Part shown: positions 14,074 to 64,000 of the stretch, in pieces | Position numbering within the stretch: position 1 is the first letter of the stretch | Layout of the letters: the number at the start of each line of letters is the position of its first letter | Source: Patagioenas fasciata | Lineage: Eukaryota > Chordata > Aves > Columbiformes > Columbidae | Assembly: GCF_037038585.1 (NCBI RefSeq) | Contig: NC_092560.1 | Span: forward strand, 84,723,549 to 84,787,548 | Reading direction: 5' to 3' | DNA length: 64,000 nt | The notes under the pieces: generated by a model | Told to the model about the DNA's origin: nothing | The model's database searches: none | What the model saw: only the letters and a program-made list of their open reading frames with translations | Program-made: the position numbers and the translations under genes

Positions 14074-14079
14074 ACTGGG

Positions 14080-15120: not shown

Positions 15121-15124
15121 GGCG

Positions 15125-15162: not shown

Positions 15163-15164
15163 CC

Positions 15165-15650: not shown

Positions 15651-15654
15651 GGAT

Positions 15655-16700: not shown

Positions 16701-16704
16701 CTCT

Positions 16705-18360: not shown

Positions 18361-18540
18361 GGAAGTCTGCCTGAATCCCAAATTATTTTAGTTAGTTAAT
18401 CTGCTCAGCGCCAGTTTATTCTGCAAACAGTCTCCGTAAATCCCAAATAATTGTAGTTAATCTGGTCAGCGCCAGCCTATGCCGTGGGCAGCCCACGTAA
18501 ATCCAGAGATCCATCCGTTAAATTAGGTCAGCGCCTTTTA
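18361..18540. repeat. Degenerate 61-bp tandem repeat, 3 copies
   Basis: The block AATCCCAAATTATTTTAG, then GTTAATCTGCTCAGCGCC, recurs with decay. TCAGCGCC falls at 18405, 18466 and 18528 (61- and 62-bp steps). The third copy is the most diverged. It is older than the other arrays and AT-rich apart from the GCGCC core. Confidence 0.85.
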
Positions 18541-18544
18541 ATAA

Positions 18545-22130: not shown

Positions 22131-22136
22131 CCCAAC

Positions 22137-22200
22137 CATAGAATCATGTTGGTTGGACGAGTCCCTCAAGATGGTTGAGCCCAGCTGTGGAGGACCATGG
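22137..22200 (-). mobile_element. Possible CR1 3'-end remnant
   Basis: ATAGAATCATGTTGGTTGG followed by ACGAGTCCCTCAAGATGG resembles the reverse complement of the CR1 tail. It is short and diverged. Confidence 0.55.
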
Positions 22201-22546
22201 TATAGTGCAAGAGGCCCAGAGCACGAGATGTCTGGGAACCACAAGCCAAGACATCAGGGTCAGAACTCAAAACAGCTTCCCAAGGTTGGAGACCTGGTCT
22301 GGCCAATGCGGGCTGGTATCGAGCACGAGGGACGTGGGGATGGGACCAGGAGCATCTGGTGAAGCTGTGGTGGTGCAGGGGTGGGAACGGGGCTCCTCGG
22401 ACCTTGTGCTGAGCACACGGCCCAGTGTTGCTCTCCAGGGGACAAGGGACACCCCAACAAGCTGTACCCAGAGCCAGGCTGCTCCTAAAGCTCAGGAATA
22501 AATCCTTCCTCTGCCCTGGGGGCTGGAGGATGGTGGCTGCTTGCAT

Positions 22547-22712
22547 AGAATCATAGACAGGTTTGGGTTGAAGGGACCTTCAAAGCCCATCTAGTCAGAC
22601 TCCATCCAGCCTGGCCTGGGAGGTCTCAGGGATGGTTCATCCACCACCTCTGGGTACCTGGGCCAGACTCTCATCACCCTCAGGGCCAACAATTCCTTCC
22701 TGCACCTCAGGA
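22547..22712 (-). mobile_element. CR1 LINE 3' fragment, antisense
   Basis: Begins ATAGAATCATAGACAGG, then GTTTGGGTTGAAGGGACC, the reverse complement of the CR1 3' end (ATTCTATGATTCTAT type). It continues with CATCCAGCCTGGCCTGGGAG, GGGATGGTTCATCCACC and AACAATTCCTTCCTG, all standard CR1 landmarks. Confidence 0.93.
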
Positions 22713-22714
22713 AG

Positions 22715-25700
22715 GTGTGGAGCAGCTGGAAGGAATCCAGAAGAACACAGCAACCCGCGGCATGTAAGACATGACCTGCAAGGACAGATCACGTCAGCAC
22801 CAAGCAGAGCCTAAAGGAGACTCGATGTTTGCTTTCCAATCATAAAAAGACCAAAGGAAAAAGACAACTTTGTCTCCCTTCCTAATTTATGTATTTATTT
22901 TACACTGTTTTCCCCACCATATTTTCTCCTCTTGCTTCTTTCAGCACCCATTGTCTGGCTGGAGCAGTCAATTTTGTGTTGGGCAACCAGGCTGTTCCAC
23001 AGAAATGCAGGGAGCCTGACCCGGGTCTCTGGGAACAGGCTGTGGGGAAGAGCCCTATGGAGATCAATTCATGGCCATAGTTATATTTTAAGGTTATATT
23101 TGCTTGTTATTTCTCCTGGGACTGTGCTGAGGATGCTCTCCTGGAGCCGGTGATGCCAGGTCCAGCAGCCACCCCGGCGGGCAAGGCACTACCTAATGCT
23201 TTGCATGTGTTCATGCTCTTGCAAAGAGAAGAAACGAAAAATACAGAAGAAAAATAGATTGCAAAGAGCTTCATTTCCCCCTCCTCACGCTCCCCACCCC
23301 TGGAATTTGTGGTTTCTTGAACCGGGTCTTTTTTCTCCACACATCCCACATGGCCGCCAGTGCTGTGATACATCTGTATGGGAATGTGTTAGTCATATTC
23401 AGCTTTTAATTACATGATATGGTATAACGCTATTCATATCCCGAGAGAGCTGTTCTTTCTACTATAAATATAGTCTCTTACATGTTTCATTTATGAAGCA
23501 GTTTCTGGAGTAAAACAGTTCGAAATATCCTTACTCATCCTATGTTTTTATGTCTACAAAGTGATGGCAGGAGCGTCGATGCCTCATGTCAAATAATCCT
23601 GATAAATCACTTGAAGGAGGATACCGGGCTTTTTCACAAAAACCGACACGAACAGGCTGCAGGAACCTTCTCCATCCCAGCTTCTCCATCTCCATCCCAC
23701 CTTCTCCATCTCCATCCCACCTTCTCCATCTCCATCCTTCCCCAGACCCACTGACCAAGCTCAATATGAGTTTCTATGTCACCTCCCCACTGAAATCAAG
23801 GCATTTGTCTCTGCAGACCAAGGATTTCACATTCTAATCCAGTACCTGCTGAGAAGTGCTTCTAGTCTGGAGTCAGCCAGCAGGTTCAAATCCTAATGAA
23901 AATTAATTTCTACGCATATATGTATATAAAAATTAAAAACATGTATTTCTAAATATCCTAAATATCCTCTAAATAGCCTAACAAGCAATTGGCTGTTTTT
24001 ACCTGACCCTGGCAAGTCTCTGGCTGCAAAGGTGGGTTGTGATTTCGCCCCGTGTGCCCACCCTCGGCTGGGGACACCGAGTGGTCCCCATGTGGCTCCT
24101 TGGGGACAGACACCCCAGGGAACGCTGCTCAGCCTCCCACTTGCACTGTACGTGCTCTAAATGGGGAAGAAAAGAGGCAGCTATACCCAGAGATACACTT
24201 TTGAGGGATGCAATGCTGTTGTTTCATAGATTCTGAGCTTTGCCTGGTACCACAGGTGCCCATGGTCCCGCTGGTCACCAAGGCCACAGCCCCAGGCAGA
24301 GCCACCCAACTGCTCCGAGAGCCCGGGCCCAGCAAAGCCAGACATTAAACAGCTTCACCAGTCACTTGTGCGAACACAAAAGGTGCTGAGCAAGGCTGGA
24401 TTCTTCCCCCATCCTGGTGATGCTCTTTGTGTGCTGGTATCACACATTGAGCCACCGGAAACCCCCACTAATTAGTACCAGCCCATGATGGCCGGGACTG
24501 ATATATCCGAGTCCTGTCCTTTATTCCTCGTGCCCTCGCTGTTTGGTGGGACCAGCACCATCCCATCCTCATCCCTAAACCAAGCCCTAAACTGGACAAA
24601 TCCCACAGCTCTACCAACAAAGACCAGATTGAGATCAAATAGGAACAAGCTGGGACGCAGAGCTAGGAGTTAAGACAACTGTAAGACAAACCCTTTGAAT
24701 CCAATCCCGACTTCCTCGTAAAGCTCCCGCTGAAATCAATGGCTGGTTTGGACAGAGCATTTGTTTCTCGTTAAGCTTTAATTGTTGTTGATGTTTCTGT
24801 GCTCCTCGAAGCCAGGAAGGATGAGACCGGGATGCTAACGGGGCTGTGCATCCTGCAGCCCGTTCGGGGTCCATCACCAGCCCCCATCAGGAGTGAGGAT
24901 ACGGACACCTGGGGCCATGCACATCACACCTCTCCCTCTCTGCTTTACATCAACCTACCCCGGGGGCTTTTTTGGGTCCTTTTTTAAAAGCGAGGCTGAC
25001 AAAATTAAGCATTTGGGATCGTGGATGAAAGAAATCTGGGGAGAGTTGCAAACAGACTCACCTCTGGGGTTGGGAGATGTGCTCTTTGAACTGGAGATGA
25101 ACTATTTGGTATTAGCGGTGTATCCCAGGAGCTATTTTTAATCTGATTTAAGCCCAGGGCCCCCCATTTTATTCTGGGGTAACTCTTGGCTTTGCAGAAC
25201 CCAACTCTGCCATTCACGACTGCATTTGGCCCTTAAACAAGGAGTTTGGAAGATTTGCTTTGAAACTTCCTCTAGATCAGCAGGATGTAACTAAAGGGCA
25301 TTTTCGGTTGTTGTTCTTCTTGTGGGAATCATGACAGTCAGCTGAAGGATGGCCAAATAACTCCAGATATTTCGCTTCCCTTGTGAGCGAGAAGTGGTTT
25401 GATTTGCACAAAAAAAAAGACTGAAAAATGGTTCTTAACTTGCCATACAAGCACAATACGAAACCACTACCCAAGGCTGCCAAACAGCGCCCGAGGTGGA
25501 CGGGTGCCCTTGCAGAACTGGTGGAGGAGCGATGCTTTCCATAACACCGCCTTGCGAGGATTTTGGGGATATTTCCTGGCTTTCTGCTCATTCTGCAGCA
25601 TCACCAGCTCCATCCCTTTTCTACTTCCCATTTCTCCCCTTTCGCTCTGTTTTCAGCCGTTTCCCCACCACCCTTTCCTTTTCTTTCCAACTCTTGGCCT
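22715..25700. other. Intergenic, no gene seen
   Basis: Unique sequence with one short array (separate entry). No exon or RNA gene recognised. Confidence 0.5.
23670..23738. repeat. 19-bp tandem repeat, about 3.5 copies
   Basis: CTTCTCCATCTCCATCCCA repeated with little change; a pyrimidine-rich plus strand with the CATCC core found in several larger arrays of the window. Confidence 0.92.
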
Positions 25701-25704
25701 TTCT

Positions 25705-25812
25705 AGGAGCAGAGAGGTGGTGGATGAACCATCCCTGAGACACCCCAGGCCAGGCTGGATGGGCTCTGAGCACCCTGAGCTGGTGACGATGTCCCTGCTC
25801 ATGGCAGGGGGG
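25705..25812 (+). mobile_element. CR1 LINE fragment
   Basis: GGTGGTGGATGAACCATCCC, CCAGGCCAGGCTGGATGGG, GAGCACCCTGAGCTGGTGA and GTCCCTGCTCATGGCAGGGG follow the CR1 3' region in order. The terminal tail is lost. Confidence 0.85.
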
Positions 25813-25814
25813 GC

Positions 25815-26568
25815 ACTGGGGACATTCGAGGGTCCCCTCCTTCCCAAATCCTCCTGCCTGACCCACATCCCCCCCAAGCTGCCAACCACATCCAAGGCTC
25901 ATCTGGCTGAGCACAGCCCTTCCTCCCCATGCAAACCTCCGAATAAGTGGCAATCTGATGTCCTCCCTAGTTTTTCATTTCCTGAGCTGTTTTAAGAACT
26001 TGCACCTGTGTAATAACCAAATACCAGGTTAAAATTGATACCAGCCTTCCAGGAGGTTGCTTGACCCACCCTGGCTTTAAACGCAATCTGTGAATGGATA
26101 AATTTTAATCCTTCACACATATTTTCTCCCTTGGAAATGCGCTACGTGTTGCTGGCGTGTAGGAGAAAACGGAACAAAAATGAATAAGAAACCCGTGCTA
26201 TCAGACTTCCTTAAATGAGTATTTTCTAATAAGAAACTGAACAAGGAGATGGAGAGAGTGAAGGAGCACAGAGGAATAACAACACCCTGCACACCCACAA
26301 ACCTCAAATCCACCTCCACCCCGAGTCCCACTGGCCAGGACCCCGATATCCCCACAGGGAGGCAGATGAACAAACTTCTTCCTTTTGCACTTCTTCCCTT
26401 TTTTAATCCCAGCAAAGTGTTTCTGTAAAGAACAAATCCTGACGGGTGTGTTGCCGGAGCCGGCCGGCCCCAACCAGCACAGACAATACCCGGGGCTGTG
26501 GGAACCGCGGCGCAGGAAGGAGCCGGGACCAGCAACAGCTGCAGCGTCTGCTTCTGCTCCACCAAAAC
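25815..26568. other. Intergenic, no gene seen
   Basis: Unique sequence; no gene recognised. Confidence 0.5.
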
Positions 26569-26569
26569 C

Positions 26570-27505
26570 ATCGCCCTGCAAAGCATCACCCTGAAACCCA
26601 GCACCCTGCAGAACATCATCCTGAAACCCAGCACCCTGCAGAACATCACCCTGCAGAACATCACCCTGAAACCCGGCACCCTGCAAACCCATCACCCTGC
26701 CAAACATCACCCTGAAACTCGGCACCCTGCCAAACATCACCCTGCAGAACATCACCCTGTAAACACATCACCCTGCAGAACATCACCCTGTAAACCCATC
26801 ACCCTGCAGAACATCATCCTGAAACCCGGCACCCTGCCAAACATCACCCTGAAACCTGGCACTCTGCAGAACATCACCCTGCAAACCCAGCACCCTGCCA
26901 AACATCACCCTGAAACCTGGCACAATGCAGAACATCACCCTGAAACACGTCACCCTGCAAACCCATCACCCTGCAGAACATCACCCTGAAATCCATCACC
27001 CTGCAAAGCATCACCCTGAAACCTGGCACCCTGCAAACCCATCACCCTGCAGAACATCACCCTGAAATCCATCACCCTGCAAAGCATCACCCTGAAACCT
27101 GGCACCCTGCAAACCCATCACCCTGCAGAACATCACCCTGCAACCCGTCACCCTGCAAACCCATCACCCTGCAGAACATCACCCTGAAACCTGGCACAAT
27201 GCAGAACATCACCCTGCAACCCGTCACCCTGAAACCCATCACCCTGCAAAGCTCACCCTGAAACCCGTCACCCTGCAAACCCATCACCCTGCAGAACAGC
27301 ACCCTGCAAACCCATCACCCTGCAGAACATCACCCTGAAACCCAGCACCCTGCAAACCCAGCACCTTGCAGAACATCACCCTGAAACCCAGCACCCTGCA
27401 AGCCATCACCCTGAAACCCGGCACCCTGCAAACCTGGCACCCTGCAGAACATCACCCTGAAACCCATCACCCTGCAAACCCATCACCCTGCAAACCCACC
27501 ACCAG
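26570..27505. repeat. 15-bp minisatellite (CATCACCCTGCAGAA / CATCACCCTGAAACC)
   Basis: About 60 units of roughly 15 bp with a constant CACCCTG core and alternating endings CAGAA, CAAAC and GAAAC. Some units have GGCACCCTG or AGCACCCTG in place of CATCACCCTG. The minus-strand frames rich in FCRVMGLQG are repeat artefacts. Confidence 0.96.
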
Positions 27506-27509
27506 CACG

Positions 27510-30500
27510 GAGGGGCTGACGCGATGCTGAGGGGCATCGCATCTGAGGAACGACAGGGGAGCACCCGCTGCTGTTCCACATCATGCAGCAGCAGAACCAA
27601 TGCACCCAAATTAACTCAGAAAGGCATCGCCTGCAAAATTTGCAGCCGCCCGAATGGAGTAGATGATTTCTGGCCTTCTCCAAAGCAGGGCTGGGGAAGC
27701 TGGCATAAAGGGATGTGTCTAGGAGATGCGTCGCCCTCCACTGAGTATCTGCTCAATTTATACCGAGTCCCCACTGCTCATAACGCACCAGCACCAAGCC
27801 CTGGCAGTAGGGCTCCAGATTTTTGGCTCCCCTCCATCCCGAAGCCCCGGCATCGATTGGATAAACCTATTTAAAAAAAAACCGATCTAGAATGACTAAA
27901 CACAAATTAGAAGTCGGATGATATAATTTCTCCTGCTAACAGCGCATCAGAGGGATGCGGGAAGACGCTTGCTCAACACACAGGAAGGAATGCCGATGAG
28001 AAATGAGTCAGCAGCGGCAGCAGGATGAATCCACAGTTGTCTCAATCAAAGCCGACTGCTTATTTACCCATCTGGGATGAATTTCTGTGCTTTGTGCGAG
28101 GAGCGAGCAGCAAGGGGCTGATGGGAGCCTGCATTCCTGCGCAACGTGGCTAATTCGGCTTGCTGGAGTAATTTGCACTCGCGGGCTGAGAAGGGGCTTG
28201 GAGGTAGAGCCACTGCAAAGCGGCAGCGAGTTTCCGATGAAAATTCGAGGAATGGAGTGAAAAAGAAAGGTTTTAATGGGGGGAATCAATGGTGATGTGT
28301 TCCACGAGGGGCTGGCACGTGGTGAGGTACAAGGACATGGCACTTGGTGAGGGACACGTGTGTCCTGGGGCAGGTCCAGCCGGGAGAAAAGATAAAGATC
28401 AATGCCCACAGTTCTGAGCAGACAAGATGAAGTACCTGTTCCTTTCCTCGGGGGATCCCCATGCCCAAAAGCATCACTGAAAAGCCAGGAATTCACTAAT
28501 CCGCAGCTCAATAGAGAGAAGAAAGGCTGGAGAAGTCAGGAGGGTCTTGGGCTTTGTTTATATGTTGTATAAGTTCCTCTAACAGAGAGATTTCACAGGA
28601 AGAGTGGATGAGTTATCTGGAAATACAGATGGTGCTATTGGAAACGCTCAGTTTTTTAAACGCCCTAAAGAACCCAGTAAGGCTTTCATTTCAAAACAAA
28701 ACAAAGAAAACTTGTCTATAAGCAAATAAACGCATCACTTTCCATCTTTACAAACATGTCAATTTACTGCTCACCCATCCTGGGGTGAGTTCTCAGCATC
28801 CACATCTCCAGCCTGTAACCCACCCAGGGGACGCTGCATGGTTGGCCCCATCGAGGAGTAATTTCCCCCCCCATCTGATTTTCACCCTCTTGGCCCAGGT
28901 AACCATTGAGGACCCGTTTGCTGGACACCGGAGCGAGGCGGGTGGTCAGTGCTGGGGCCATAAGGATGGATAACGGGCTGGAACAAGGCGCCGGGTGCCG
29001 GCGGCTCCTCAGCTGGCGCCCGTTATCATTTCGTACCTCCAGCCACTTCAAACAGCAGCCACTTCAAGAGAGCCACGAGCACTCACAGCCACGGCGGGTC
29101 TGCCTCTAATTACGCCGGCTCTGATGTGTAACATCCTGAGCATCCCCCGGCCCCACCGACTTCCCACCAACAGCATCAAAGGGGGACGGGGCCGGCAGCC
29201 CCGGGATGGGCTGGGGGTACCTGGGATGAGCATGAAGAACATTTGGCCAAACCCACCCTGAAACCCTCTCCATTTCCTCCCACACCAGCACCAAACCCAG
29301 CTCATTCCCACCACGTTTCAAAAGCAATATTGATTTTTTTTTTAAGAGCATAACTCTTTTAATCCGAACCACATTTTCGCAAATGAGCCGCTAAATATTT
29401 GCTGTGTCTTTCTTTTTTTCCCCCCCGAAATAAATCCTGCGCGCCAGATCCTCTTTGGACGTAACTCATTGCAGCTTAAAACGAATTAACTCCGTTCACA
29501 CCAGCCTTTTGTTTCACAAGCCCCTGCTCCCCTCCCTGAGGAAGAAACGCGTGTTTTGCTGATGAACAGAGCTTTTCCAAGTATTATCGTTATTCCTGTG
29601 ACACAGATAAATCACTCTTTGCATTTATTAACTCCTCATCCTCGTGCTATGGGATGGGGCGGGGGGTCCCTACCCTGGGTACCACCTGCCTGTGGGGACA
29701 TCAAACTGTCCCCATCATGGGGAGGTGACCAAAGGGCTGGGAGCACTTGCCGGGATCTCTAGAGGTTTAAGAGCGCTTGCTTATCCTTATCACGATGCTC
29801 CAAATCTGATAGTCTTATTTCTCAGCCACAATAAGTTCAATTGCCAGCAGATAAGACTGGCTCAGCAGTCTTGCGTTTTCGTTAATCTCCGATTAATTTT
29901 AATGATCTTTCAGCCCCTTTTATTCCACATTACTCAGGACTTTCACATAATCTTCGTGTCTAAGCGCGGCTCCGCTGCCTTTAATCCACGCCGATATTTC
30001 TGCCTCCCCTTGGCGCTCCTCCGCGTGCCACCAAAGCTGCTGGTGTCACCTGCTCATTCCACGGGGCTTCTCACCTTCTTTATTAATTATTGTATTGGCG
30101 CTGCAACCACGTTAACAGACAGCAGGAATTTACGACGCTCATAGAAACCAAAGGCAAAGCAACCACAGCCTGGCTCCACGGGACCTTCCGTCTCCCTCTA
30201 ACAGCACTCATTTTTAGGGAAAAAAGGTCAAATGGGGTGTCCTAGGCTTTGAACACTCGGGGTCCAGCTGCCCATCTGCAGAGGATGCTGGAGCTGGTGG
30301 GCAGCCCAGCGCCCCGGGGCCGCCTGGGTCCCACTGATAAGGGCCCATCAGTCGCGGGTGCCGCTGCCAGGAGGGACGAGCGATGCCAACGCCGCCTTAA
30401 CCGAACAGACACCAAACTCGGGGCACCGCTGCCTCGTGCCAGCCTGAGACACCCCAGTGATGCTCCTCAGGTACCGAGGAAGGCGCTCTGCAAGCCCAAG

Positions 30501-33045
30501 GGACACAGCATCACCCCCAAAATTACCCCCGGTGGGTCCCGTATGCAGCTTCACAATTACTGCGGCATCCAAGGCGCAGCTTTGATTCCTGCACATCTCC
30601 CCAAGCGACGCTCACGCCACCCCGAGTCCCTCAGAAAAACCCCATTAGAAGCATCACCAGCCCTCGGCCAAGCAGGAAAATCCTGCGAACACCCAGCCAA
30701 AGCCTCTGTGCATGGAAACGCCAGCGTGGCCCAGGGGCTTTTGCACTGATCCTCTCTCAGCTCCCAAACACGCTCCAGCTCCTTGTGATCCACACACAGG
30801 GATGGAGCGGGGGGCCAACCACACACCTGGGATGCCCGAGGAATCACATTCACACTGCGTGGAACAGTCCCAACACTCTGCAAGTCTTTTCCCACATCAG
30901 TATGGGCAAAACTAAGGGTCTATCTTGATTAATCACCAGTATTTTCTGTCGCCTTTTAGTCTGGAGTGCTGAGGATATTAATTCTGCCATCCAGGACTCC
31001 TATTTGCCATCACCACCCACTCGACCCAGCTGCTTGCTGGGTGCAGGGTCACGGTGATGCCAGCCATGCACCGGGCTCGAATCTGACCAAAAAGACAATG
31101 ACAATTCAGGGGACGATGGCAAGCAGCGCTATGGGGGTGCTGCACCCCCAGCCTGGATGTAAAGACACAACTAAATCACACAGAGCCCCCCTGTCGCAGC
31201 TGCAGCCACAGCCCAACAGCTTGCGGGCTGCAATGCAATAGTTATTTCCCCCACCCCCTCTCTTTTTTACAAATGCGATTTTTCTCTGTGGATTAGAGCA
31301 TCATTAAGCCCCCCAGACCCGCGTGTCCTACATCACCGGCCCTCACCCCCCGGCTCCAGCACCGGGATGGCAACCACTGCTCCCACCACGGGGATAGCAG
31401 GAGCATCCCAGCATCTCCTGCCCAATATAAACCAAACCCCAACCAACCAAACCCCGGCGACAGTAGCGATAAAGTAGTTTTGGCCTATTTCCGATGATTT
31501 AATCCTCTTTAGACTTCTTTGACTCTCAGGCTTACAGTTATTTAGCGCATTTCGGTAAGTATCTGAGCACACATCTGCACCCAGGTTCGCTTCGGGCGGA
31601 TTTGAGCATGGGGGTGCTTTGCTCCTCCCAGAGGGACGTTGCAATTCGATTTACAGCCATTCTTTCCCAATACGACTTTATTTTGTCTGACAGAACCAAA
31701 TACTCGACCACAAAAAGTTGTTTCTAGCAATATTACGCTTTTATATGGTACTATTAAAAGCAATAAATAGTACTAAAATAAGATTCTGGCTGTTTTTGGA
31801 GTAGAGATGCATTTGCGAGCATCTTTGTGCTGTCCCTCCCCAGGGAAGGTTTTCAGCACCCACAGAACCACGAGCACATCCCGGCTGTGCTGGGGAGGGA
31901 TTGAGAAGGCGGCCGCAGGATTCCTCTTCTAAAGAACAATATTGGCTTAGCGCGGTAAAGAAGATCAATGAGTCCTAGCTAAGGATCTACCCCAGGCATT
32001 TAGCGCTTCCGGAGGGATGCTCTGGGTACCAAACTCAACCTGAGGGATGCTCAGCACCTTCAGCATCGCAGCCCCTCACGGAGGTACAACCCGAACCCCC
32101 TCTTTTTGCTGACAAAGCGGTCCTGTATCAATCCCACCCAGGTTTAAGCCACCCCGCAGCATCGCGGGAGTGTTTCCCGGTCCCATCCCAGCGACAGCCG
32201 ACTACAATCTGATTAACGCTAGATTACAACAGGGTGGGTTTTTAAGAGCTTAAAAGCAGCTCAGGCTACAGAAATCTAGCTGATCGTATCAGCAGCATTT
32301 GAGAAAATCGCCACATAGAAGGGAACGGCAAATTTTGGGCGGTTCTTGCCAAAGGGGCCATTTACTGATAGAGAAACTTTCCAGCCCATTTTGTTCGGTG
32401 TCAGTTTGTATCTGCAGAGACTCCCATGGACCCCCTGCATCGCTCTCCCGGGCAGATCCCTGGCTTGTTTAGGGGCTATTTTGCTGTAATATTTTCATTT
32501 TTCACCAAAAAAGCTTCCAAGTTTGCCCTATGGGGAATGGGAAGACACTGGCAGCTTTACAACACTGCTGATAATTGCACTGGATGGGAAATAAATCAGT
32601 TTTCCAGGGAAGGACGCAGTCCTAACCAGCAATGGGCAGGAATAACCCCCAGAAAGCCCTTTTACCCAGGGAAGCATCTGTTTGCTCTTCTCAGAGGTGC
32701 CTCAAATGGGCGTTCACCCCAAAACTTCCAGTAACGTTGGTATAAGCAGAAAAGAGAGGGAGAAACTGCTAAAGTGATATTAAGAGCACGTAGCGAGTGG
32801 TAGTTGGTAAAGACAAGCAGTTGAAAGAAAAACCAGCACAAGGAAACATTACTGACCTGGGTGGGCGCTACCAGTGCCTGGTCCCTTTGTCCCTTTGTCC
32901 CCTTGTCCCCAGGTGTCCCAGGGCCACCGCGCTGCCGGGCAAACACCAGCAGGTCCTGCAGCAGCCCAGCCCGCACCTGCTGCCAACAGGGCTTTGTTCT
33001 CCAAAACCCGGGCCACACGCTTCCCTACCTTCCCAAGATGCAACT
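27510..33045. other. Intergenic, no gene seen
   Basis: The longest repeat-poor stretch (5.5 kb) left of TCF4. Mixed composition, with AT-rich islands at 28540-28760 and 29330-29620 and a near-perfect 17-bp inverted repeat GGGGGTGCTGCACCCCC at 31133-31149. The plus-strand frames at 29644-30144 and 30249-30749 (166 aa each) resemble no known protein and have no supporting splice context. CCTTTGTCCCCTTGTCCCC-type runs lie at about 32883-32911. Confidence 0.5.
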
Positions 33046-33053
33046 GACCTTTC

Positions 33054-33611
33054 CCATCATCCCCATCATCATCCTCCTCAACATCACCCCCATCATCATC
33101 CCCATCATCATCCCCATCATCACCCCCATCATCATCCCCATCCCCATCATCATCATCCCCATCATCATCATCGTCATCATCCCCATCCCCATCATCATCA
33201 TCCCCATTATTCCCATCATCCCCATCCCCATCTTACCCACCATACCCATCACCCCCATCATCCCCATCATCATCCTCATCCCCATCATCATCATCTTCAT
33301 CCCCATTATCATCATCACCCCCATCCCCATCATCCCCATCTTACCCACCATCGCCATCATCCCCATCATCATCATCATCCCCATTCCCATGATCCCCATC
33401 ATCCCCATCCCCATCTTGCCCACCATCCCCGTCACCCCCATCATCACCATAACCATCCCCAACATCCCCACCATCTCCATCATCCCCATCATCATCATCA
33501 TCCCCATTCCCATGATCCCCATGATCCCCATCCCCATCCTGCCCACCATCCCCGTCACCCCCATCATCACCATAACCATCCCCACCATCCCCACCATCTC
33601 CATCATCCCCA
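33054..33611. repeat. (CCCCATCATC)n minisatellite with 123-bp higher-order repeat
   Basis: Built from ATC and CCCATC units, all in multiples of three. Each frame therefore stays open over hundreds of bases (His/Pro, Ile/Pro and Met/Gly strings on the two strands). In the right half a 123-bp block recurs (ATTCCCATGATCCCC at 33383 and 33506). Confidence 0.95.
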
Positions 33612-33614
33612 GGC

Positions 33615-34914
33615 CCAGGTGTCCACCCTGGGCAGAGCTTTGGGCACTGCTCTGTTTTTCAGCAGAAATACATTAAACCCCCGTCTCTGGACGCAGGACC
33701 CGCAGCTGCTCATCCACCCTCCGGCACTGGCCCGTACACAACAACTATTGGCAAACCCAAAAAGCTGTTTTCACGAGCAGCTGAGAGAGCCGGGCACGAG
33801 ATGTAGTTTTGGGGGGACATCCTGAGGTCGGTGGGTCTTAAACATCACGTACTGTGCTCACACCTCAGAGATTTACAAGCTCCAGACACGCGGGATGGAT
33901 TTACCGGCTCCCTAAAGAATCGATTGAGATGGAGCCAAGTTTCCCCGAGCCATCGGCCACGGGACGGGGCGGGATGATTCCAAACTCTATCTATAAAGAA
34001 TGAAACGCGTTCTCCCACCCTTCAGCTCTTCTATTCTGTTGGAGCCCTGTTGCTCCGTCAGAGATGCTGGTTGACTCTTCATTTGTTTAAAATGACCTAC
34101 TGTCCTGGTCGGGAAGAAAATGGCCGTTAAACACACATAATTTCATTTGCAACAGTCAAACTGCATGGTTCAGTAGCAACAGGTTGTGGTTAGAAGGGTT
34201 AAACGGCAACAAGAAAACTCCTTTCGTTGGCAAAACTAAAGGCGTTATCATTCAATATTCCCCACATTCCGCAACCACCGGCCCCTGTGAGAACGTAGGT
34301 ATCAATAACAACCGAAAATACCCCAAAGACACTGCGTGGATCAATAAATCCTCAGCGCAAAGCTGTGGGAGCTGCGTAAATGTTGTATGAACCTGCCCTC
34401 CCCATCGTTTCTCCAACACCGACCCGAGGCCGTTCCATCAAAATCTCAGCTTGTATGGTCCCACCACCGCAATTTGCACAACTTCGCTATTGAGATGTGA
34501 GGCAAGGAGTTTGTATCGGTCTGAATTCGGTGTTCAGGTCCAACGGTGCCCACCAGAAGAGAACAATCATCATAAAACAAGAACCACGAGGTAGGTTGGG
34601 AAACAAGGCTGGTGGGTTGGGTTTGTGCATCCCCGCTCGCTCCCGCAGGCGCTTTGTGCTCTTCCAAAGGCGTGAAATACAGATTTTGAACTATAGAACA
34701 GAGGAAAACCCAGAGGAGAATGAGAATGAAAATAATCTTGCCTTTTTACAGCACTTTCGGATGCGAACGCGGAGAAAACGCGGCGGTGGGAAGCACAAAG
34801 CACCACCGGGGCACCGCGCACAAACCCCAATGGTTGATATCCCCAAAATGCGCTCTTATTCTAAAAAAAGGCCCCCAAAAGCAGGCAGGGGAAATGAAAG
34901 GCGAGTGTCGGGAA
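33615..34914. other. Intergenic sequence just downstream of TCF4, no gene seen
   Basis: Unique sequence between the (CCCCATCATC)n array and the probable TCF4 cleavage site. A 155-aa plus-strand frame at 34497-34964 overlaps the antisense UTR end and resembles no known protein. Confidence 0.5.
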
Positions 34915-34934
34915 GGGTTTATAAAAATGGCACA

Positions 34935-34940
34935 TTTATT
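34935..34940 (-). terminator. TCF4: Probable distal TCF4 poly(A) signal AATAAA
   Basis: The complement reads CTGTAGCAATAAATGTGCC, at the low-coordinate end of the AT-rich UTR-like block; the character of the sequence changes beyond it. Cleavage would be expected around 34910-34920. No transcript evidence is available here. Confidence 0.55.
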
Positions 34941-36640
34941 GCTACAGAACGGTCATGTACATGACGGCATCGAGTAACTACAGATGAGAAACAGGTACCG
35001 GCCCAACAAGCTGCCCGGGGCGGCTCTGGCTGCGGGAACAACTCCAGCGCGCAACCTGTTCGGCCACTTCTACAAATCAGAAATACACCAAAAAACATGA
35101 AAAAATCGAGGCACTCAGCCACACATTGAAAACAAGGTGTAACTGTTCATTTTTTTTTTCTTTTGTGTGTGTTTTTCCCTTTTTTTCTCTATTTTTTCCC
35201 CCGTTTTTACTGCCGCGCCTACGTGTACAGTCGCAAAAAACGGCCCCGTTGCGACCTACAACTAAAAGGAAAAGCTACCGTACAGTTTCATCTCCATAAC
35301 ACATGGTAAAATAACGTCTTTTAAATAGTAAAATAAAGTAACAAACTTTTACTCAGAATGATTCCAAAAATCTACAAAGAAGAAATATTCAGAATCTGAC
35401 CATTTTTTTTCTTTTTCCGTAATATTCCTGGTATAAAAGGATTGCTCCTGTGAAAAATAAGCCAAATATAGGTCTTTTTATTTTTAAATTTAGTTTTTTT
35501 TTTCTTTTTTTCTCCTACTAGGGTGTACTACAGTCTATTTTATAGCAAAAAGAGCACTAGACAAACGAAGCTTTATAACAAAAAGCCAGGCACTGATACA
35601 TGGTAAATCTCTGCTTGTTTGTTCTCTTATCGTCACTTAATTGCATCACAAGTAACAAGAATGAAAAAGGCCACAGTTCATATATCTTCACCATTACATA
35701 AGTCTATAATACTTGAAATGAGTATGGTCAAACCAGCACTGCACGAATATGGATCAAGTCCCATGAGAAAGAACATCGTTCTGTTTGAAGAAAAACGAAA
35801 AATAACCAATGAACAGAACAAAAAGCCAAAGGAAAAGCTCGGGCCCCCCGGGCCCTGTGCCCCGCTGTGTTGGAATCCATATTCCATATGAATTCATTCC
35901 ATATTCCACCTCTGTGGGTTTTTTTTCCAGTCAACCAGTGGACTAATTCTTACTATTAATCTATTCTTTCCCTTTTTAACGAATATTTTAGCGTTATTCT
36001 CGATTTGTGCTTGTTTCTGCCGCCGTCTCGCCATTCGTGGCTCGGGCGGCGTTGGGACGCGGGTCGCACTCTGCCTGCGGGATGCAAAGGTGAACCCCCC
36101 CGGCCCTGCCCCGGCGCCTTCCCCACCGCCCCCACCCCAAAACACCCTAAAAAAACCCCCCCAAAACCTCGGAAGACTGAATCAGTACAAGTTGCATCAC
36201 TGGTAGGACTGACAGTTGTCGAAACGTTAGTGTTCCTCGCAGCTACACAGAAGACAAATGGTAAAAAAGTTCTAGATGAACAGATTCCCTATTCAGCATA
36301 TTCATAAATTACTTGAATGTGGAGGTGGATCAGTTCGGAAAAAGCTGCTAATTGCGGATTTTGCTTTCTGTCAGAGTTTCTGAGCCCGCTTTCCTCACCG
36401 CAGGGCACGGCTTCGCTAAGGAACCTTCATCACTTTGCTGAGCACCGCCAGCCCCGTCCCCTCGCACGGAGCAGCTGGAGCCGCACGCCTTACCTGGGCT
36501 GGGGAGCACGGGGAGCTCCCACTCACACACTGGGGGTGCCCCTGGAGATCCTGGGCAGCTGGAGCGGAGCTGCGGTGCTGAACGCCGGGATGGACCAGGG
36601 CGCGTCCTGCGGGCAGGCGGGGCCGCGAGCTCGGAGGGGG

Positions 36641-37842
36641 TGGCAGCATCCGTCCCACGGGCAGCATCAGCATCCTGCTGGCATCATCCCACCGGATCCA
36701 TCCTGATGGATCCATCCCGCCGGCAGCATCATCATCCTGCTGGCATCATCCCGCTGGATCCATCCTGCTCGATCCATCCCACTGATAGCATCATCATCCT
36801 GCTGGCATCATCCCGCCGGATCCATCCTGATGGATCCATCCCGCTGGCAGCATCATCATCCTGCTGGCATCATCCCGCCGGATCCATCCTGCTGGATCCA
36901 TCCCGCCGGCAGCATCAGCATCCTGCTGGCATCATCCCGCCGGATCCATCCTGCTGGATCCATCCCGCCGGCAGCATCATCATCCCGCTGGATCCATCCT
37001 GTTGGCATCATCCCACCGGATCCATCCTGCTGGCATCATCCTGCTGGATCCATCCCGCCGGCAGTAGCATCATCCCACTGGATCCATCCTGCTGGCATCA
37101 TCCCACCGGATCCATCCCACTGGCGGCATCAACCATCCCGTTGGATCCATCATCCATCCCACTGGATCCATCCTGCTGGCATCATCATCATCCCACTGGA
37201 TCCATCCTGCTGGCATCATCCCACCGGATCCATCCCACTGGCGGCATCAACCATCCTGCTGGATCCATCATCCATCCCACTGGATCCATCCTGCTGGCAT
37301 CATCATCCCCCCACTGGATCCATCCTGCTGGCATCATCCTGTTGGATCCATCCCGCCGGATCCATCCTGCTGGCAGCATCCTGCCAGATCCATCCCGCTG
37401 GATCCATCCTGCCGGCAGCATCATCATCCTGTTGGCATCATCCGACCAGATCCATCCTGCTGGATCCATCCTGCTGGCATCATCCTGCCAGATCCATCCC
37501 GCTGGATCCATCCTGCTGGATCCGTCCTGCCAGCAGCATCATCATCCTGCTGGCATCATCCGACCGGATCCATCCTGCTGGCATCATCATCATCCTGCTG
37601 GATCTATCCTGCTGGCATCATCTGACCAGATCCATCCTGCTGGATCCATCCTGCTGGATCCATCCTGTTGGCATCATCCTGCCAGATCCATCCTGCTGGA
37701 TCCATCCCGCCGGCAGCATCATCATCCCACCGGATCCATCCCGCCGGCAGCAGCATCATCCTGCTCGCATCATCCCACCGGATCTATCCTGCTGGCACCA
37801 TCCCGCCGGATCCACCCCGCCGCCATCCGTCCCCCGGCGCCG
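36641..37842. repeat. 14-bp BamHI-rich minisatellite with 62-bp higher-order repeat, inside the presumed TCF4 3'UTR
   Basis: Units GGATCCATCCTGCT (14 bp), GGCATCATCCCGCC (14 bp) and GGCAGCATCATCATCCTGCT (20 bp) are combined; 14+14+14+20 gives a 62-bp higher-order unit, clear at 36800-36990. Dozens of palindromic GGATCC sites are present. The 373- and 401-aa frames (Ile/Leu/Asp/Pro/Ser/Cys/His strings) are artefacts. Confidence 0.96.
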
Positions 37843-39149
37843 TGAGCATCACCCCGAGCTGCTCCTCGACTTCAGCGCCAGACCTTTTCTAATTTCAGTT
37901 CCAGAAGCTAAACCTGTCATTTATTTTCTGTCCACGGATGGCTGCAAATAATCACGAGGTTGGTGGTCTCACTCCGTTTGGTGTTTCGCACGGGCAGCGC
38001 GGTCCCGAGCGTCTCAGGGATGGTCCCGGCGGGACGCACCGGCTCGGTGCTCTCCTGGAGAACACATCTATGGCTTGTTGGCGGGCATCCGGAGGAGAAG
38101 CCGCGCGGCGCGGAGCGGAGCGGCAGAGCCGGGCTCAAGCTTTGTTAATCCCCCTCTCAGCTAAACCTGCTCCGAGTGCCCCGGCGGGCCAATCCACCTC
38201 CACATTTGAGAAACTTATCGACAAATCAAAGCACTGCGAAAGTTTCCTCGCTACTGGACATATTTACAGTTCTCAGCACGCACACAGCTAATCCGAATGG
38301 GATGGGGATGTCGGAGGTGAGCACGTGGTACCTATCGGATTTGTTCTTCACGTTTTTTTCAGAAACAAACATAAACTTCAGATTCTTGTATCTCACTATT
38401 TCATTTCAATGAGACTTTTGTTCTGTTTTCAACCACACAGATTTTTATAAACAAAAGAACCGATACAATGTATTAAAACACATAATAACAAGAGTCTACA
38501 TGTAAAAATATAACTTTTACATACACAATTTCAAAATAATGATACGTTTGCCATTTGTTGCATAAAATTTACAAATGTCTTTTCATTACTATATAACTGG
38601 CAAAACAGGAGAACAGATGGAACATTTAGACCGTCCGATGGATTTATGGCATTTATTCAGTGTCTATTGATAGGTGGGAAGAAAAACCTACTCCGTTTTA
38701 TTTCCAATACATGCCAGGTTGGTGTGGCTGTAAAAATAGAGACTGGAACTCGAGACAAAAGGATGCTGACAAATACTTCACTAGGAGCACTATCTGGTAA
38801 TCGTACTGTACACCAAAGTCCAGCGTTAATCCGGATTCACTACGGAAGTTGGTTCGGTTGTGCCCAGACTTCAAAGCCAGTTCTCTGATGAGCTGCTGTG
38901 CCACGTATGTCGCTATTAAACACGTTAAGTAAAAACTTCATTCGTACTGGCCAGAGAAAATACTGCTCTACCACCCCTCCTGGACAAAGTGCAACTTAAT
39001 GCTTTAGGACTCATAAGGCTTGTTAGAATAATGCTGCATGATGACCAAAAATTGGCATTTCACAAAGAAAGGAGGAGGCAGCGAGTGGTCTACACTTAAA
39101 TAATCCACTTAAAAACGCAACGCAACAACGGAAAAAGGAAACCGACCGG

Positions 39150-39445
39150 ATCTAGCACGCTACTTGCGATCCCCCCCGCCCCGCCACGGTCCCCCCGGCC
39201 CCCCGGTCTGAGCGCGGACTCAGGCGGGGGACGCGGCACCCGCCGCGGGCTCGCGGCCACTTCCAGCATGTCATGGGTTTGTGGTTTTTATTGGTTTGTG
39301 TGGTTTTTCCCGATGATAGAAACATTGGAAGGCACAGTGGTAACGATTTGTAGCATTCTAACCTTGTACCTCTGAAAATCCCAGAACAAAAGGGGGGAGT
39401 GGAGCGGCCGGGGGGGGGCGCTCCCGCCGTCCCCTCCGCCCCACG
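39150..39445. other. GC-rich patches within the TCF4 3'UTR
   Basis: Two short C/G-rich patches (about 39167-39255 and 39395-39445, for example CCCCCCCGCCCCGCCACGG and GGCCGGGGGGGGGCGCTCCC) interrupt otherwise AT-rich UTR sequence. They could be lineage-specific expansions. Confidence 0.6.
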
Positions 39446-39726
39446 GCCCCAAGGAACGACTTTCTACTCTTAATTATGAATGAGAAGCAACGTCAGGGTC
39501 AGCGTTCCGTCCTGCACTGCCCCTCCAGAGACAGAGTTGGCACCGCAGGTCACAATAACCGAAAGAACCCAAAAGAAAACCAAGGGGAGAGGGACAGAAA
39601 TCAGACCAAAAAACCCTTATTTACAGTAAAATCTTCTTCTTAAAAAAGTTAATCAGTACTATTTTTTTACAGGAGCAAAAAAGTCTGAAACGAATGAACA
39701 AAAGCTTACCATAGTCACTAAATTTT

Positions 39727-39768
39727 TAATATATATTTATATATATATTTATATATATATATATTTGT
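39727..39768. repeat. (TA)n-rich microsatellite in the TCF4 3'UTR
   Basis: TATATTTATATATATATTTA and onwards: alternating TA with TTTA interruptions. Confidence 0.95.
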
Positions 39769-40418
39769 CATAGGTCTATAAGATCCATCTGTTCCTCCTA
39801 CCCTAAGGAATGGCTAATGTCATCGCTTCCGTTTTCATTAGGACGTTTGCTGGTTTTGTAAAGATCTGGGCAGCAAAGCTTCCCTTTGAATATCCAGTAA
39901 GTAGAAACACTAGCTGTCTAGCACACCAACAAAAGCGCTCGTTTTGCTTTCCTTCAGAAGTACACTTTTTCATTATTGCAAGTTTACAATTTTAAATTAA
40001 ATAGTTTTTTTTTCTTCTTCAGACTTACAAATTAATTATATCTTTTTTTTTTTTTTTTTCTTTCTTTTCCAAAAGAAGTTTAGGCACAAATGCATTGTCC
40101 CACAGTGTGGAGAAGATTGCCATTCAGTCTCTAGGCTGCGCACGGACAGCTCGGAACATACTGCGTTAGACATTCTGCGTGATATGTTAAAGAGAGGCGG
40201 CCCTCAAGTTGCACTTGGTTGTTCGCTCGTTTGTCTCTTTCCTCTCGCTTTTAATACTCGGGAATGCTGAAATCTCTTGCGTCTGCGATTCTTAACTACT
40301 CAGACTTGTCTTATATTACAAAAAAGGGGTTAAGGAGAAGTGTTTATGTGGGTTTAAGATAATACAGCTGTTAAGGAAGTGGTCTCTTGCTTAAATGAAG
40401 AAATGTGGCAACTTGGAC

Positions 40419-40570
40419 CTGCGGAAGAAATGAAACAAGTTCTCCTTAGTCGAGGAGCCTTGAGTGCGTGGCCCTGCACCCTCCACTCCGACACCGCCGT
40501 GGAAACGGAGGTGACCCAAACCCGTTCCTAAGGGAAACGCGCTGACCAGACTCGCCCGCCCCGAACCTGC
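40419..40570 (-). other. TCF4: Intron in the TCF4 3'UTR, just after the stop
   Basis: After the stop the complement reads AAACAGGCAGGTTCGG. About 150 bases further on, a clear acceptor CATTTCTTCCGCAG precedes GTCCAAGTTGCC, which I recognise as the start of the long TCF4 3'UTR exon (human exon 20). Human TCF4 also has a non-coding last exon. The donor is uncertain: either a GC donor CAG|GCAGGT (intron 40419-40570) or a GT donor GCAG|GTTCGG (intron 40419-40566). The exon junction would lie 6-10 nt after the stop, too close to trigger nonsense-mediated decay under the 50-55 nt rule. Confidence 0.75.
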
Positions 40571-40576
40571 CTGTTT

Positions 40577-40747
<171 letters not shown>

Positions 40748-40844: not shown

Positions 40845-41107
40845 GAACACCCCGTGTGCTCTGCAGACACCCCGTGTGCTCTGCAGACACCCCGTGTGCT
40901 CTGCAAACACCCCGTGTGCTCTGCAGACACCCCGTGTGCTCTGCAAACACCCCGTGTGCTCTGCAAACACCCCGTGTGCTCTGCAGACACCCCGTGTGCT
41001 CTGCAGACACCCCGTGTGCTCTGCAAACACCCCGTGTGCTCTGCAGACACCCCGTGTGCTCTGCAAACACCCCGTGTGCTCTGCAGACACCCCGTGTGCT
41101 CTGCAGA
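40845..41107. repeat. 20-bp minisatellite CTGCAGACACCCCGTGTGCT, about 13 copies, in the last coding intron
   Basis: Perfectly phased 20-bp units from 40861, differing only as CTGCAGACACC or CTGCAAACACC. The order of G/A states from 40861 is G G A G A A G G A G A G. It begins about 130 bp upstream of the last coding exon acceptor, in TCF4 orientation. The frames with repeated CRAHGV or CALQTPRVL are artefacts. Confidence 0.97.
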
Positions 41108-41342
41108 GGAGCAGCCCAGCTTAGCACTGAGTTTGGGTCTTGCTACAGAACATAAAACATGTCCAGGCCCTTCCCCAGCGCCCCAGTGCTATCGGGGAAC
41201 ACAAGCACTGGGGGTGCTCGAGGTGCCCGGCCCGCTCTGGGTGACCAGGGTCGGGCATCCCTGGCTGCGCTCCCCCCAGCCAAAAACCGTGTGAAACTCA
41301 TGAAGGATCTAAGGGATTCGCGGAAAGGAGGTTCTTGGAGAC

Positions 41343-41412
41343 ATGGTTTAGTGACAACCTTGGGTTAATGGTTGGACTCAATGACCTTGAGAGCCTCTTC
41401 CAACCAAAATGG
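41343..41412 (+). mobile_element. CR1 LINE 3'-end remnant in the last coding intron
   Basis: ATGGTTTAGTGACAACC, TTGGGTTAATGGTTGGACTC and CTTCCAACCAAAATGG match the CR1 tail. It lies antisense to TCF4. Confidence 0.88.
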
Positions 41413-41429
41413 TTGTGGGCATCCTGGGG

Positions 41430-41888
41430 TGGGTTAGAAGGAGGTGGTCAGTAGGTCAGAGAGGTTCTCCTGCCCCTCTGCTCTGGAATATTGTGTCCAG
41501 TTGTGGCCCCTCAGTTCCAGAAGGACAGGGAACTGCTGCAGAGAGTCCAGCGCAGCCACCAAGATGCTGAAGGGAGTGGAGCATCTCCCGGGTGAGGAAA
41601 GGCTGAGGGAGCTGGGGCCCTGGAGCTGGGCAAGAGGAGACTGAGGGGGGACTCATTCATGGGGATCAATATGGAAAGGGGGAGTGTCAGGAGGATGAGC
41701 CAGGCTCTTCTGGGTGACAACCAGTGACAGGACAAGGGGCAATGGGTGCGAACTGGAACACAGGAGGTTCCACTTAAATATGAGAAGAAACTTGTTTGGG
41801 GTGAGGGTGTCAGAGCCTGGCCCAGGCTGCCCAGGGAGGTTGTGGAGTCTCCTTCTCTGCAGACATTCAAACCCGCCTGGACACCTTT
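41430..41888 (+). mobile_element. CR1 LINE fragment abutting the TCF4 bHLH exon donor
   Basis: Typical CR1 order on the plus strand: TGTGTCCAGTTGTGGCCCC, CAGAAGGACAGGGAACTGC, AAAGGCTGAGGGAGCTGGGG, GACAGGACAAGGGGCAATGG, CAGAGCCTGGCCCAGGCTGC and GACATTCAAACCCGCCTGG. It then stops at about 41888, before the CR1 3' tail, and the bHLH exon begins at 41901. It is antisense to TCF4. Loss of the 3' end is unusual for CR1, which normally loses its 5' end. Confidence 0.94.
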
Positions 41889-41900
41889 GAGGACACTGAC

Positions 41901-42130
41901 CTCGGACCTGCTGCTCTAAGCTGAGGATGACGGCCACAGCCTGGTGTAAGATCAGGAGCTTGGTCTGGGGCTTGTCGCTCTTGAGGTGGAGCTGCACCAT
42001 GCGGCCCAGCTCCTTGAACGCCTCGTTGATGTCGCGGACGCGCAGGCGCTCCCGGGCGTTGTTGGCCATTCTCCTCTCCTTCTCCCGCTCGGCTTTCTGC
42101 TCCGGTGTCAGGTCTTCGTCGTCGTTATTG
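41901..42130 (-). CDS. TCF4: TCF4 bHLH-domain exon (human exon 18 equivalent)
   Basis: 230 bp encoding the DNA-binding and dimerisation domain: [17 protein letters not shown], basic region [20 protein letters not shown], helix 1 [14 protein letters not shown], loop DKPQTK, helix 2 [19 protein letters not shown]. The basic region has the E-protein signature [16 protein letters not shown], with the Glu of NARER expected to contact the CA of CANNTG. The acceptor is CTCCCAG|CAATAAC (AG at 42131-42132); the donor is GTCCGAG|GTCAGT (GT at 41899-41900). The exon starts in phase 2 and ends in phase 1, matching both neighbours. CR1 sequence ends only about 12 bp beyond the donor, on the intron side. 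In humans this exon is a hot spot for Pitt-Hopkins mutations. No residue of the domain appears altered. Confidence 0.98.
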
Positions 42131-44049
<1,919 letters not shown>

Positions 44050-44147: not shown

Positions 44148-45362
44148 TACAGCCGCACCACGCACAGCTGTACCATGCACACCGTGCACAGCCGAACCGT
44201 GCACACTGTGCACACCATGCACAACTGTACCATGCACACCATGTACACCATGCACAGCTGTACCATGCACACCGTGCACATCTGTACTGTACATGCCATG
44301 CACAGCTGTAGCATGCACGCTGTGCACAAGTTGCACAGTCATACCGTGCACACCATGTACGCCATGCACAGCTGTACCATGCACACCACACACACCTTGC
44401 ACAGTCGTACCGTGCACACCATGTACGCCAGACACAGCTGTACCATGTACACCATACATACCCTGCACAGCTGTACTGCACACACCGTGCACAGCTGTAC
44501 CATCCACACTGTGCACAGTCATACCACGCACACCGTATATGCCATGCACAGCTGTAGCATGCACACCATGCACACCTTGCACAGCCGTATCGTGCACATC
44601 ATGCACACCTTGCACAGACACACCATGCACACCGTGCACAGCCATACCATGCACAGTTGTAGCATGCACACCGTGCATGCCATCCAGAGCTGTACTGCAC
44701 ACACCATGCACAATGTGTACAGCTGTACCATGCACACTGTGCACACCCTCCCGTGCATACTGTGTACACCATGCACAGTTGTACCCTGCATACTGTGCAC
44801 ACTGTGCATGCCATGCACAGCTGTATGGCACACACCATACGCACCTTGCACAGCCGTACTGTGCACACCCTGCAGAGCTGTACCATGCACACCATGCACA
44901 ACTGTACTGTGCACACCACGCACAGCTGTACCGTGCACGCTGCGCACACTGCGCACAGCCACACTGCGTACAGTTGTACCGCATGCACCATGCACACCAT
45001 GCACAACTGTACTGCACACACTGTGCATGGCACACACAGCTGTACCATGCACACCGCACACAGCTGTACCATGTACACCGTGCACATCTGTACTGCACAC
45101 ACCCCGCACACCACGCACAGCCGTACCGTGCACACTGTGCACACCACGCACAGTTGTATAACATAAACCACGCACACCGCGCACAGCCGCACCGCACACA
45201 CCACACACAGTTGTACCACATAAGCTGCGCACACTGTACATCACACACACCGTACCTCCAGGTGTCCCACGCACACCCTACACCTGTACAGCTGCAGTGT
45301 GCACACTGTGCACACCCGCAGCGCACACACAGTACAGCCGTACCGCGCACACCGCGCACAGC
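44148..45362. repeat. 33-bp (15+18) minisatellite rich in CAGCTG E-boxes, in TCF4 intron
   Basis: Alternating modules CACAGCTGTACCATG (15 bp) and CACACCATGTACGCCATG (18 bp) with many variants. At least a dozen exact CAGCTG E-boxes are present (for example 44165-44170, 44255-44260, 44303-44308, 44369-44374), plus CAGTTG/CAACTG variants. Long alternating purine-pyrimidine runs (TGCACAC, GTGCAC) occur throughout. A 33-bp period is divisible by three, which explains frames of 250-418 aa on both strands. Confidence 0.95.
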
Positions 45363-49316: not shown

Positions 49317-50470
49317 AGAGCATCCTCATTGTCACTGCTGCCTTCATCCCGAGCATCCTCACCCTCGCTGCTGCCTTCATCCCCAGCATCCTCACCCTCA
49401 CTGCTGCCTTCACCCTGAGCATCCTCACCCTCGCTGCTGCCTCCATCCCCAGCATCCTCATCCTCGCTGCTGCCTTCATCCTGAGCATCCTCCCCCTCAC
49501 TGCTGTCTTCATCCCCAGCATCCTCACCCTCGCTGCTGCCTCCATCCCCAGCATCCTCACCCTTGCTGCTGCCTTCATCCCCAGCATCCTCCCCCTCACT
49601 GCTGCCTTCATCCCCAGCATCCTCACCCTGGCTGCTGCCTTCATCCTGAGCATCCTCACCCTCACTGCTGCCTCCATCCCCACCATCCTCACCCTCACTG
49701 CTGCCTTCATCCTGAGCATCCTCCCCCTCACTGCTGCCTTCATCCCCAGCATCCTCACCCTCACTGCTGCCTTCATCCTGAGCATCCTCACCCTCACTGC
49801 TGCCTCCATCCCCAACATCCTCACCCTCACTGCTGCCTTCATCCTGAGCATCCTCACCCTCACTGCTGCCTTCATCCCCAGCATCCTCACCCTGGCTGCT
49901 GCCTTCATCCCCAGCATCCTCACCCTGGCTGATGCCTTCATGCCGAGCATCCTCACCCTCACTGCTGCCTTCATCCCCAGCCTCCCGTCACTGCTGCCTT
50001 CATCCCCAGCATCCTCACCCTCACTGCTGCCTTCATCCCCAGCATCCTCACCCTCACTGCTGCCTTCATCCCCAGCATCCTCACCCTCACTGCTGCCTTC
50101 ATCCCCAGCATCCTCCCCCTCACTGCTGCCTTCATCCCCAGCATCCTCACCCTCACTGCTGCCTTCATCCCCAGCATCCTCACCCTCACTGCTGCCTTCA
50201 TCCTGAGCATCCTCACCCTCACTGCTGCCTCCATCCCCAGCATCCTCACCCTCGCTGCTGCCTTCATCCCGAGCATCCTCACCCTCACTGCTGCCTTCAT
50301 CCCCCGCATCCTCACCCTCACTGCTGCCTTCATCCCCAGCATCCTCATCCTCACTGCTGCCTTCATCCCCAGCATCCTCACCCTCACTGCTGCCTTCATC
50401 CCCAGCATCCTCATCCTCACTGCTGCCTTCATCCCCAGCATCCTCATCCTCACTGCTGCCTTCATCCCCG
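49317..50470. repeat. 33-bp minisatellite, about 35 copies, in TCF4 intron
   Basis: The unit reads AGCATCCTCACCCTCACTGC then TGCCTTCATCCCC. Units vary mainly at CTCACT/CTCGCT, TTCATC/TCCATC and CCCC/CTGA. All frames stay open because 33 is a multiple of three, giving repeat proteins of 195-272 aa on both strands (MLGMKAAVRVR and CCLHPQHPHPH types) that I regard as artefacts. Confidence 0.97.

Positions 50471-56400: not shown

Positions 56401-64000
<7,600 letters not shown>

Follow-up and report, generated by a model that had tools for sequence, protein, structure and literature searches.

A minisatellite embedded in the predicted terminal exon of TCF4 at the shared Z/W end of Patagioenas fasciata

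Does a fast-changing tandem repeat lie within the message of TCF4, and does it act there? This question is raised by a 64,000-nucleotide stretch of Patagioenas fasciata DNA (NC_092560.1, positions 84,723,549 to 84,787,548; hereafter the window), whose minus strand carries the late TCF4 exons from 56793-56990 down to the stop-codon exon. Further down lies a 1.2-kb minisatellite at 36641-37842, which the original prediction, made from the letters alone, had placed inside the TCF4 3' untranslated region (UTR). The array is present as claimed, judging from the periods found by Tandem Repeats Finder (TRF) and from counts of GGATCC. In our view it is a minisatellite of the pseudoautosomal region that lies in the TCF4 terminal exon and, most likely, is tolerated there as a passenger without acting as a switch (probability of about 0.75).

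TRF reported period 14 at 36685-37822 and period 62 at 36648-37747, together with higher-order periods, and self-comparison of the array gave strong offsets of 62, 118 and 124. Such head-to-tail units (periods 14 and 62, higher-order 118 and 124) are those of a minisatellite, whose units span about 10-100 bp. The array holds 33 of the 40 GGATCC sites in the window; whole-window dinucleotide shuffles (n = 100) gave a mean of 19.9 sites and a maximum of 31. No long pure CTG or CAG run was found in the array units, the longest being CTGCTG or CAGCAG. A second GGATCC-rich stretch occurs on another contig (L005, C10:40427164) with 39 GGATCC in 3.3 kb, and therefore the unit type is not unique to TCF4.

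The upper limit of the exon was located with human and mouse sequences. The available part of a 2024 case report (PMC11457474) gives a human TCF4 peptide produced by reading past the stop codon into the terminal exon, and this peptide matched the window at 28 of 35 positions from 40417, the runner-up on the same strand within 34.9-42.2 kb reaching 8 of 35. Similarly, a mouse Tcf4 primer given in the available part of PMC7681249 matched 22 of 23 bases at 40267-40289. Moreover, 40418 is the first base after TTCTTCCGCAG, an AG acceptor directly before the terminal exon. Because of the peptide match, the primer match and the acceptor, the predicted terminal exon of TCF4 is taken to begin at 40418. 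The UTR had been said to start there; the position stands as the first base of the terminal exon, but the stop codon lies one exon earlier (40580-40578), and therefore the first few UTR bases belong to the penultimate exon.

The lower limit is set by the AATAAA at 34935-34940, which was confirmed on the TCF4 strand. When the basic helix-loop-helix (bHLH) exon was searched against the bird's own genome, matches beyond the two TCF4 copies lay at C16:12363127 (93%) and, as two exons, on C34 (85% and 75%); these loci are probably TCF12 and TCF3, respectively, because of the protein family and the exon arrangement. The TCF4 window and the TCF12 locus share collinear matches on the same strand: the bHLH exon, the stretch around the stop codon (40565-40629, E 5e-5), the distal UTR core and the poly(A) module. 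Non-collinear matches were limited to a CR1-like stretch at 41369-41414 (E 5e-5) and weak ones (E 0.13-0.35). As a control, the TCF12 3' region was matched with both strands of 17 other 5.5-kb stretches from the window, and no score exceeded 31.1 bits. At the TCF3 locus the poly(A) module is found again (81%, E 2.5e-5), and here TCF12 and TCF3 also resemble each other (87%, E 6e-7); beside the distal core, TCF3 gives no more than a weak match (E 0.025). The paralogous modules lie at L037:7162-7252 and L040:8243-8332, and the three-way alignment contains 15 consecutive invariant columns, TGTAGCAATAAATGT.

Thus the distal AATAAA is very likely the ancient end of E-protein messages, and for this reason the array would lie inside the terminal exon. 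The long-UTR ends of TCF4, TCF12 and TCF3 appear to descend from one ancestral end, and the poly(A) site common to the three genes would anchor them across the E-protein family. It had been named as a possible objection that 34.9-36.3 kb might have no counterpart in such a UTR; judged against the paralogs in the bird's own genome, the core and the module do match TCF12, and the module matches TCF3. We also considered the 34.9-36.3-kb block as the 3' UTR of another gene and rejected this. No Pfam family exceeded the cut-off in six frames of 1-5000, 10001-15000 and 20001-35000 or in the minus frames of 15001-20000; one keratin-type match fell just under the cut-off, inside the 26.5-27.5-kb array.

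A strand signature extends over the exon on both sides of the array. Six of the eight T-runs of at least 8 in the 64 kb fall in the non-array terminal exon (two proximal, four distal), as against none of the seven A-runs of this length. For runs of at least 7, T outnumbers A by 4 to 0 in the proximal and 6 to 1 in the distal block. UGUA is likewise more frequent in sense than in antisense (14 to 4 distal, 16 to 8 proximal), and ATTTA showed no common direction across the blocks.

Contig C48 (85.9 Mb) carries the window about 1.1 Mb before its end; a colinear copy, from 4268 on as fetched, is found about 1.1 Mb into contig C47 (70.5 Mb). Both contigs carry the CHD1 C-terminal family at unlike positions, and these loci are 69-71% identical in DNA. 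C48 at 84.0 Mb is 99.1% identical to C47 at 1.88 Mb over 3000 bases, while the best C47 match of C48 at 83.0 Mb lies at 64.8 Mb with 84-88% (a repeat-rich query for which the best candidates alone were scored). Near-identical colinear ends on otherwise diverged chromosomes are the mark of a pseudoautosomal region, and the two contigs show them; C48 behaves like a Z and C47 like a W that have such an end in common, and its boundary would lie between 83.0 and 84.0 Mb on Z. DCC-type (Neogenin_C) exons occur in the shared end on both Z and W. According to the available part of PMC5327424, DCC is on Z in the birds that have it and was lost in galliforms and passerines. A rearrangement near the lost DCC locus, as in galliforms and passerines (available parts of PMC5327406 and PMC5327424), was considered as the setting of the array and rejected, given the DCC-type exons on Z and W.

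Comparison of the two copies adds a further line of evidence. Outside arrays, Z and W differ at 7 of 4177 positions within 34935-40418 versus 255 of 45246 elsewhere in the window (Fisher p 2e-4; linked sites from one haplotype pair, with an N gap in W covering part of the proximal block). The distal block has 2 differences in 1395 bases, as compared with 14 in 1323 over the 1.3 kb immediately below the poly(A) signal (p 0.002), and the small intron above 40418 has 4 in 158 aligned bases. Positions within the UTR at which Z and W differ include 36068, 36162, 38637, 39400 and 39503. Paralog homology, low haplotype divergence and strand signature together support the assignment of 34935-40418 to the TCF4 terminal exon, and the predicted location of the array within the 3' UTR is borne out on the same three grounds. 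This membership is read from DNA (peptide, acceptor, TCF12/TCF3 homology and haplotype divergence), not from RNA.

Table 1. Coordinates of TCF4 features and of the array in the window (positions of the whole stretch)
Feature	Position	Strand	Remark
TCF4 exon	56793-56990	-	Sequence reading
TCF4 stretches	43894-44028 and 43635-43790	-	Sequence reading
TCF4 bHLH exon	41896-42133	-	Limits approximate; HLH domain in frame, E 6.8e-12
Penultimate TCF4 exon	40578-40718	-	Upper limit approximate; stop TAA at 40580-40578
Predicted TCF4 terminal exon	34935-40418	-	Start to distal poly(A) signal, 5484 bp (4282 bp without array)
Proximal UTR block	38201-40418	-	Z vs W: 3 differences in 2114 aligned; W copy partly N gap
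Candidate proximal AATAAA	38652-38657	-	Others at 37920, 38697 and 39287
Second inverted-repeat arm	38192-38218	-	Modest support
GGATCC-rich 14/62-bp minisatellite	36641-37842	.	33 GGATCC; G-rich strand is TCF4 sense (minus)
118 bp missing from W copy	37068-37185	.	Per-indel-event alignment
Place of 124-bp (2 x 62) gain in W (C47) copy	36753-36754	.	Per-indel-event alignments
Inverted-repeat arm	36304-36330	-	Pairs with 38192-38218, brackets array; modest support
Distal UTR block	34935-36330	-	Z vs W: 2 differences in 1395
Distal UTR core	35325-35484	-	71% identity over 168 columns to TCF12 3' region, E 8e-19
Poly(A) module	34917-34962	-	83% identity over 47 columns to TCF12 3' region, E 2e-5
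Distal AATAAA	34935-34940	-	Within the 15 bases invariant in TCF4, TCF12 and TCF3

The surroundings of the array are rich in similar repeats. Tandem repeats make up about 15% of the window (17 stretches; 14.9% by TRF at period of at least 9). In a small sample of other pieces, TRF at the same period found at most 0.6% in each of three 10-kb pieces of C16 and 0% in 9.6 kb of C34. On Z, 3-kb pieces taken at 30, 60, 75, 82, 83 and 83.5 Mb gave 0% (the one at 80 Mb was all N). Between 84.0 Mb and the Z tip, six pieces gave 15, 0, 21, 0, 15 and 57%; on W, the share was 0% in both 10-kb pieces, at 2.0 and at 3.0 Mb, and the tip piece was all N. For chicken, minisatellite coverage of 1.27% is given, by other criteria, in the available part of PMC4992247. 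The window lies in a minisatellite-rich shared Z/W end. Of 1195 placements of a 4.3-kb stretch in the window, 654 overlap another large array by at least 400 bp, and therefore an array within the TCF4 UTR needs no special cause. One of the other arrays, at 15665-16653, holds 12 of the 17 ATTTGCAT octamers of the window on both strands, which we take to be a POU-type motif.

The array itself differs between the chromosomes. With costs per indel event, the W array corresponds to the Z array with a gain of 124 bp and a loss of 118 bp, leaving 5 substitutions in 1084 aligned bases; in the window copy, 37068-37221 shows 97% similarity to the stretch at an offset of +118 bp. The suggestion that array length varies was thus right in that whole units differ between Z and W within one bird (n = 2 haplotypes), but the net difference is only 6 bp (1202 bp in Z, 1208 bp in W; 33 and 32 GGATCC). 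In substitution rate the array is similar to the remaining window (p 0.84), and no constraint on its sequence is apparent. Among 15 arrays of the window compared in length between Z and W, several differ more than the TCF4 array and four do not differ. The biggest change is in a 33-bp intron array of TCF4 at 49319-50469 (1151 bp in Z, 2269 bp in W). A 20-bp array at 40847-41107, in the intron before the stop-codon exon, measures 261 and 141 bp, a difference of exactly six units with 0 substitutions.

From these data we propose that the array arose and turns over via the recombination typical of the shared Z/W end. mRNAs that end at the distal site would probably include the array as a G-rich spacer with strong folding and no constraint on its sequence, flanked by two UTR segments that are constrained. 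The mRNA most likely tolerates the array and is affected little or mildly by it.

Alternatively, the folded G-rich array RNA may alter how stable the mRNA is or whether the proximal or the distal poly(A) site is chosen, and unit number would then tune the TCF4 level; we think this unlikely. The sense RNA is predicted to fold with -534 kcal/mol (z -4.5, 30 shuffles) and the W allele with -542, the array lies between proximal and distal poly(A) signals, and an inverted repeat stands on both flanks. The hairpin folding proposed at the outset is therefore found as strong predicted structure, but it does not set the array apart. Six other arrays gave z from +1.7 to -11.7 (12 shuffles each), all six with -2.4 or lower on one strand or more; four of them fold more strongly than the TCF4 array on one strand or both, three with a z of -7.6 or less. 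The bracketing repeat (27 nt, 15 of them exact, local duplex -46.3 kcal/mol) has modest significance, being reached by 1 of 300 and 4 of 400 shuffles. Under GC-weighted scoring a different pair was best, itself reached by 11 of 500 shuffles, and one arm finds a better partner in at least 5 of the 423 other 76-mers taken from the window. The window-like substitution rate of the array also speaks against an acting sequence. The positive evidence for such an action is limited to predicted folding and position.

Several points weigh against the tolerated pseudoautosomal passenger that we favour. Inclusion of the array in mRNA is a prediction from sequence. Four further AATAAA motifs between the stop codon and the array (39287, 38697, 38652 and 37920), absent from the original prediction, could end many transcripts before the array and would allow shorter messages without it; two ATTAAA also occur there. 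For runs of at least 6, the strand bias is weak (4 to 4 proximal, 7 to 5 distal). The distal block alone versus all the rest gives p 0.04, and low Z/W divergence is found outside the UTR too, 12 of 199 overlapping 1.4-kb windows being as low as the distal block; just two haplotypes were compared. Heavier gap-extension costs turn the 5 substitutions and 2 indels of the array into 29-32 substitutions and 6-8 small indels, and the array exceeds the UTR in substitutions only weakly (p 0.08).

If TCF4 transcripts ended upstream, for example at 38652 or 37920, the array would effectively be downstream DNA. The four upstream motifs are in favour of such an end, but the distal signal is common to TCF12 and TCF3, the divergence between haplotypes shifts at this signal, and no domain exceeded the cut-off in the scanned parts of 1-35000; this explanation appears rather doubtful. 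It is a distinctly improbable idea that, in ZW females, the differently built Z and W arrays set allele-specific use of the distal poly(A) site or mRNA decay, with recombination continually generating regulatory alleles of a dosage-sensitive neural gene. Removal of the array as a 3' UTR intron is a general possibility but very improbable: for human, exon 21 is described as the sole terminal 3' exon in the available part of PMC3137626. Tandem arrays are error-prone in assembly and three short N gaps interrupt the W copy within the 70 kb fetched, but an artefact is hardly credible given an array on two contigs with matching flanks and different unit structure, and no N in either copy.

The embedded and tolerated minisatellite has relatives among known repeats. 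The 40-bp repeat of SLC6A3 is a 3' UTR minisatellite or variable number tandem repeat. Like the TCF4 array, repeats of this type lie in a terminal exon, are built of tandem units some tens of bp long and are polymorphic in copy number; they differ in unit sequence and gene, and the bird array lies in a shared region of sex chromosomes and is known from sequence alone. Human pseudoautosomal region 1 (PAR1) is rich in minisatellites and resembles the bird Z/W end in that GC-rich arrays with fast turnover are densely packed at an end common to both sex chromosomes, whereas the bird case concerns Z and W, and its array overlaps a conserved UTR. In human TCF4, a CTG repeat in intron 3 is linked to Fuchs dystrophy (available part of PMC7595208). 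It shares with the bird array the gene, the instability and a possible RNA effect; on the other hand, it is an intronic triplet run, and the bird array is a 14/62-bp minisatellite of the terminal exon without a long CTG run. Thus a deeply conserved 3' UTR would have taken in a fast-changing repeat while the flanking DNA diverged little. One bird carries two differently built copies of the array in a sex-chromosome region, which would offer a natural test of whether a large structured UTR repeat matters.

Finally, some minor features of the TCF4 gene were observed. A CR1-like element at 41330-41895 ends about 20 bp or less from the splice donor of the bHLH exon. Third-position GC is 96-97% in 56793-56990 and 43894-44028, as would be expected under GC-biased conversion in a high-recombination region. 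In addition, the TCF4 intron array at 44162-45209 holds 13 of the 45 CAGCTG sites of the window, CAGCTG being the E-box type bound by E-proteins such as TCF4.
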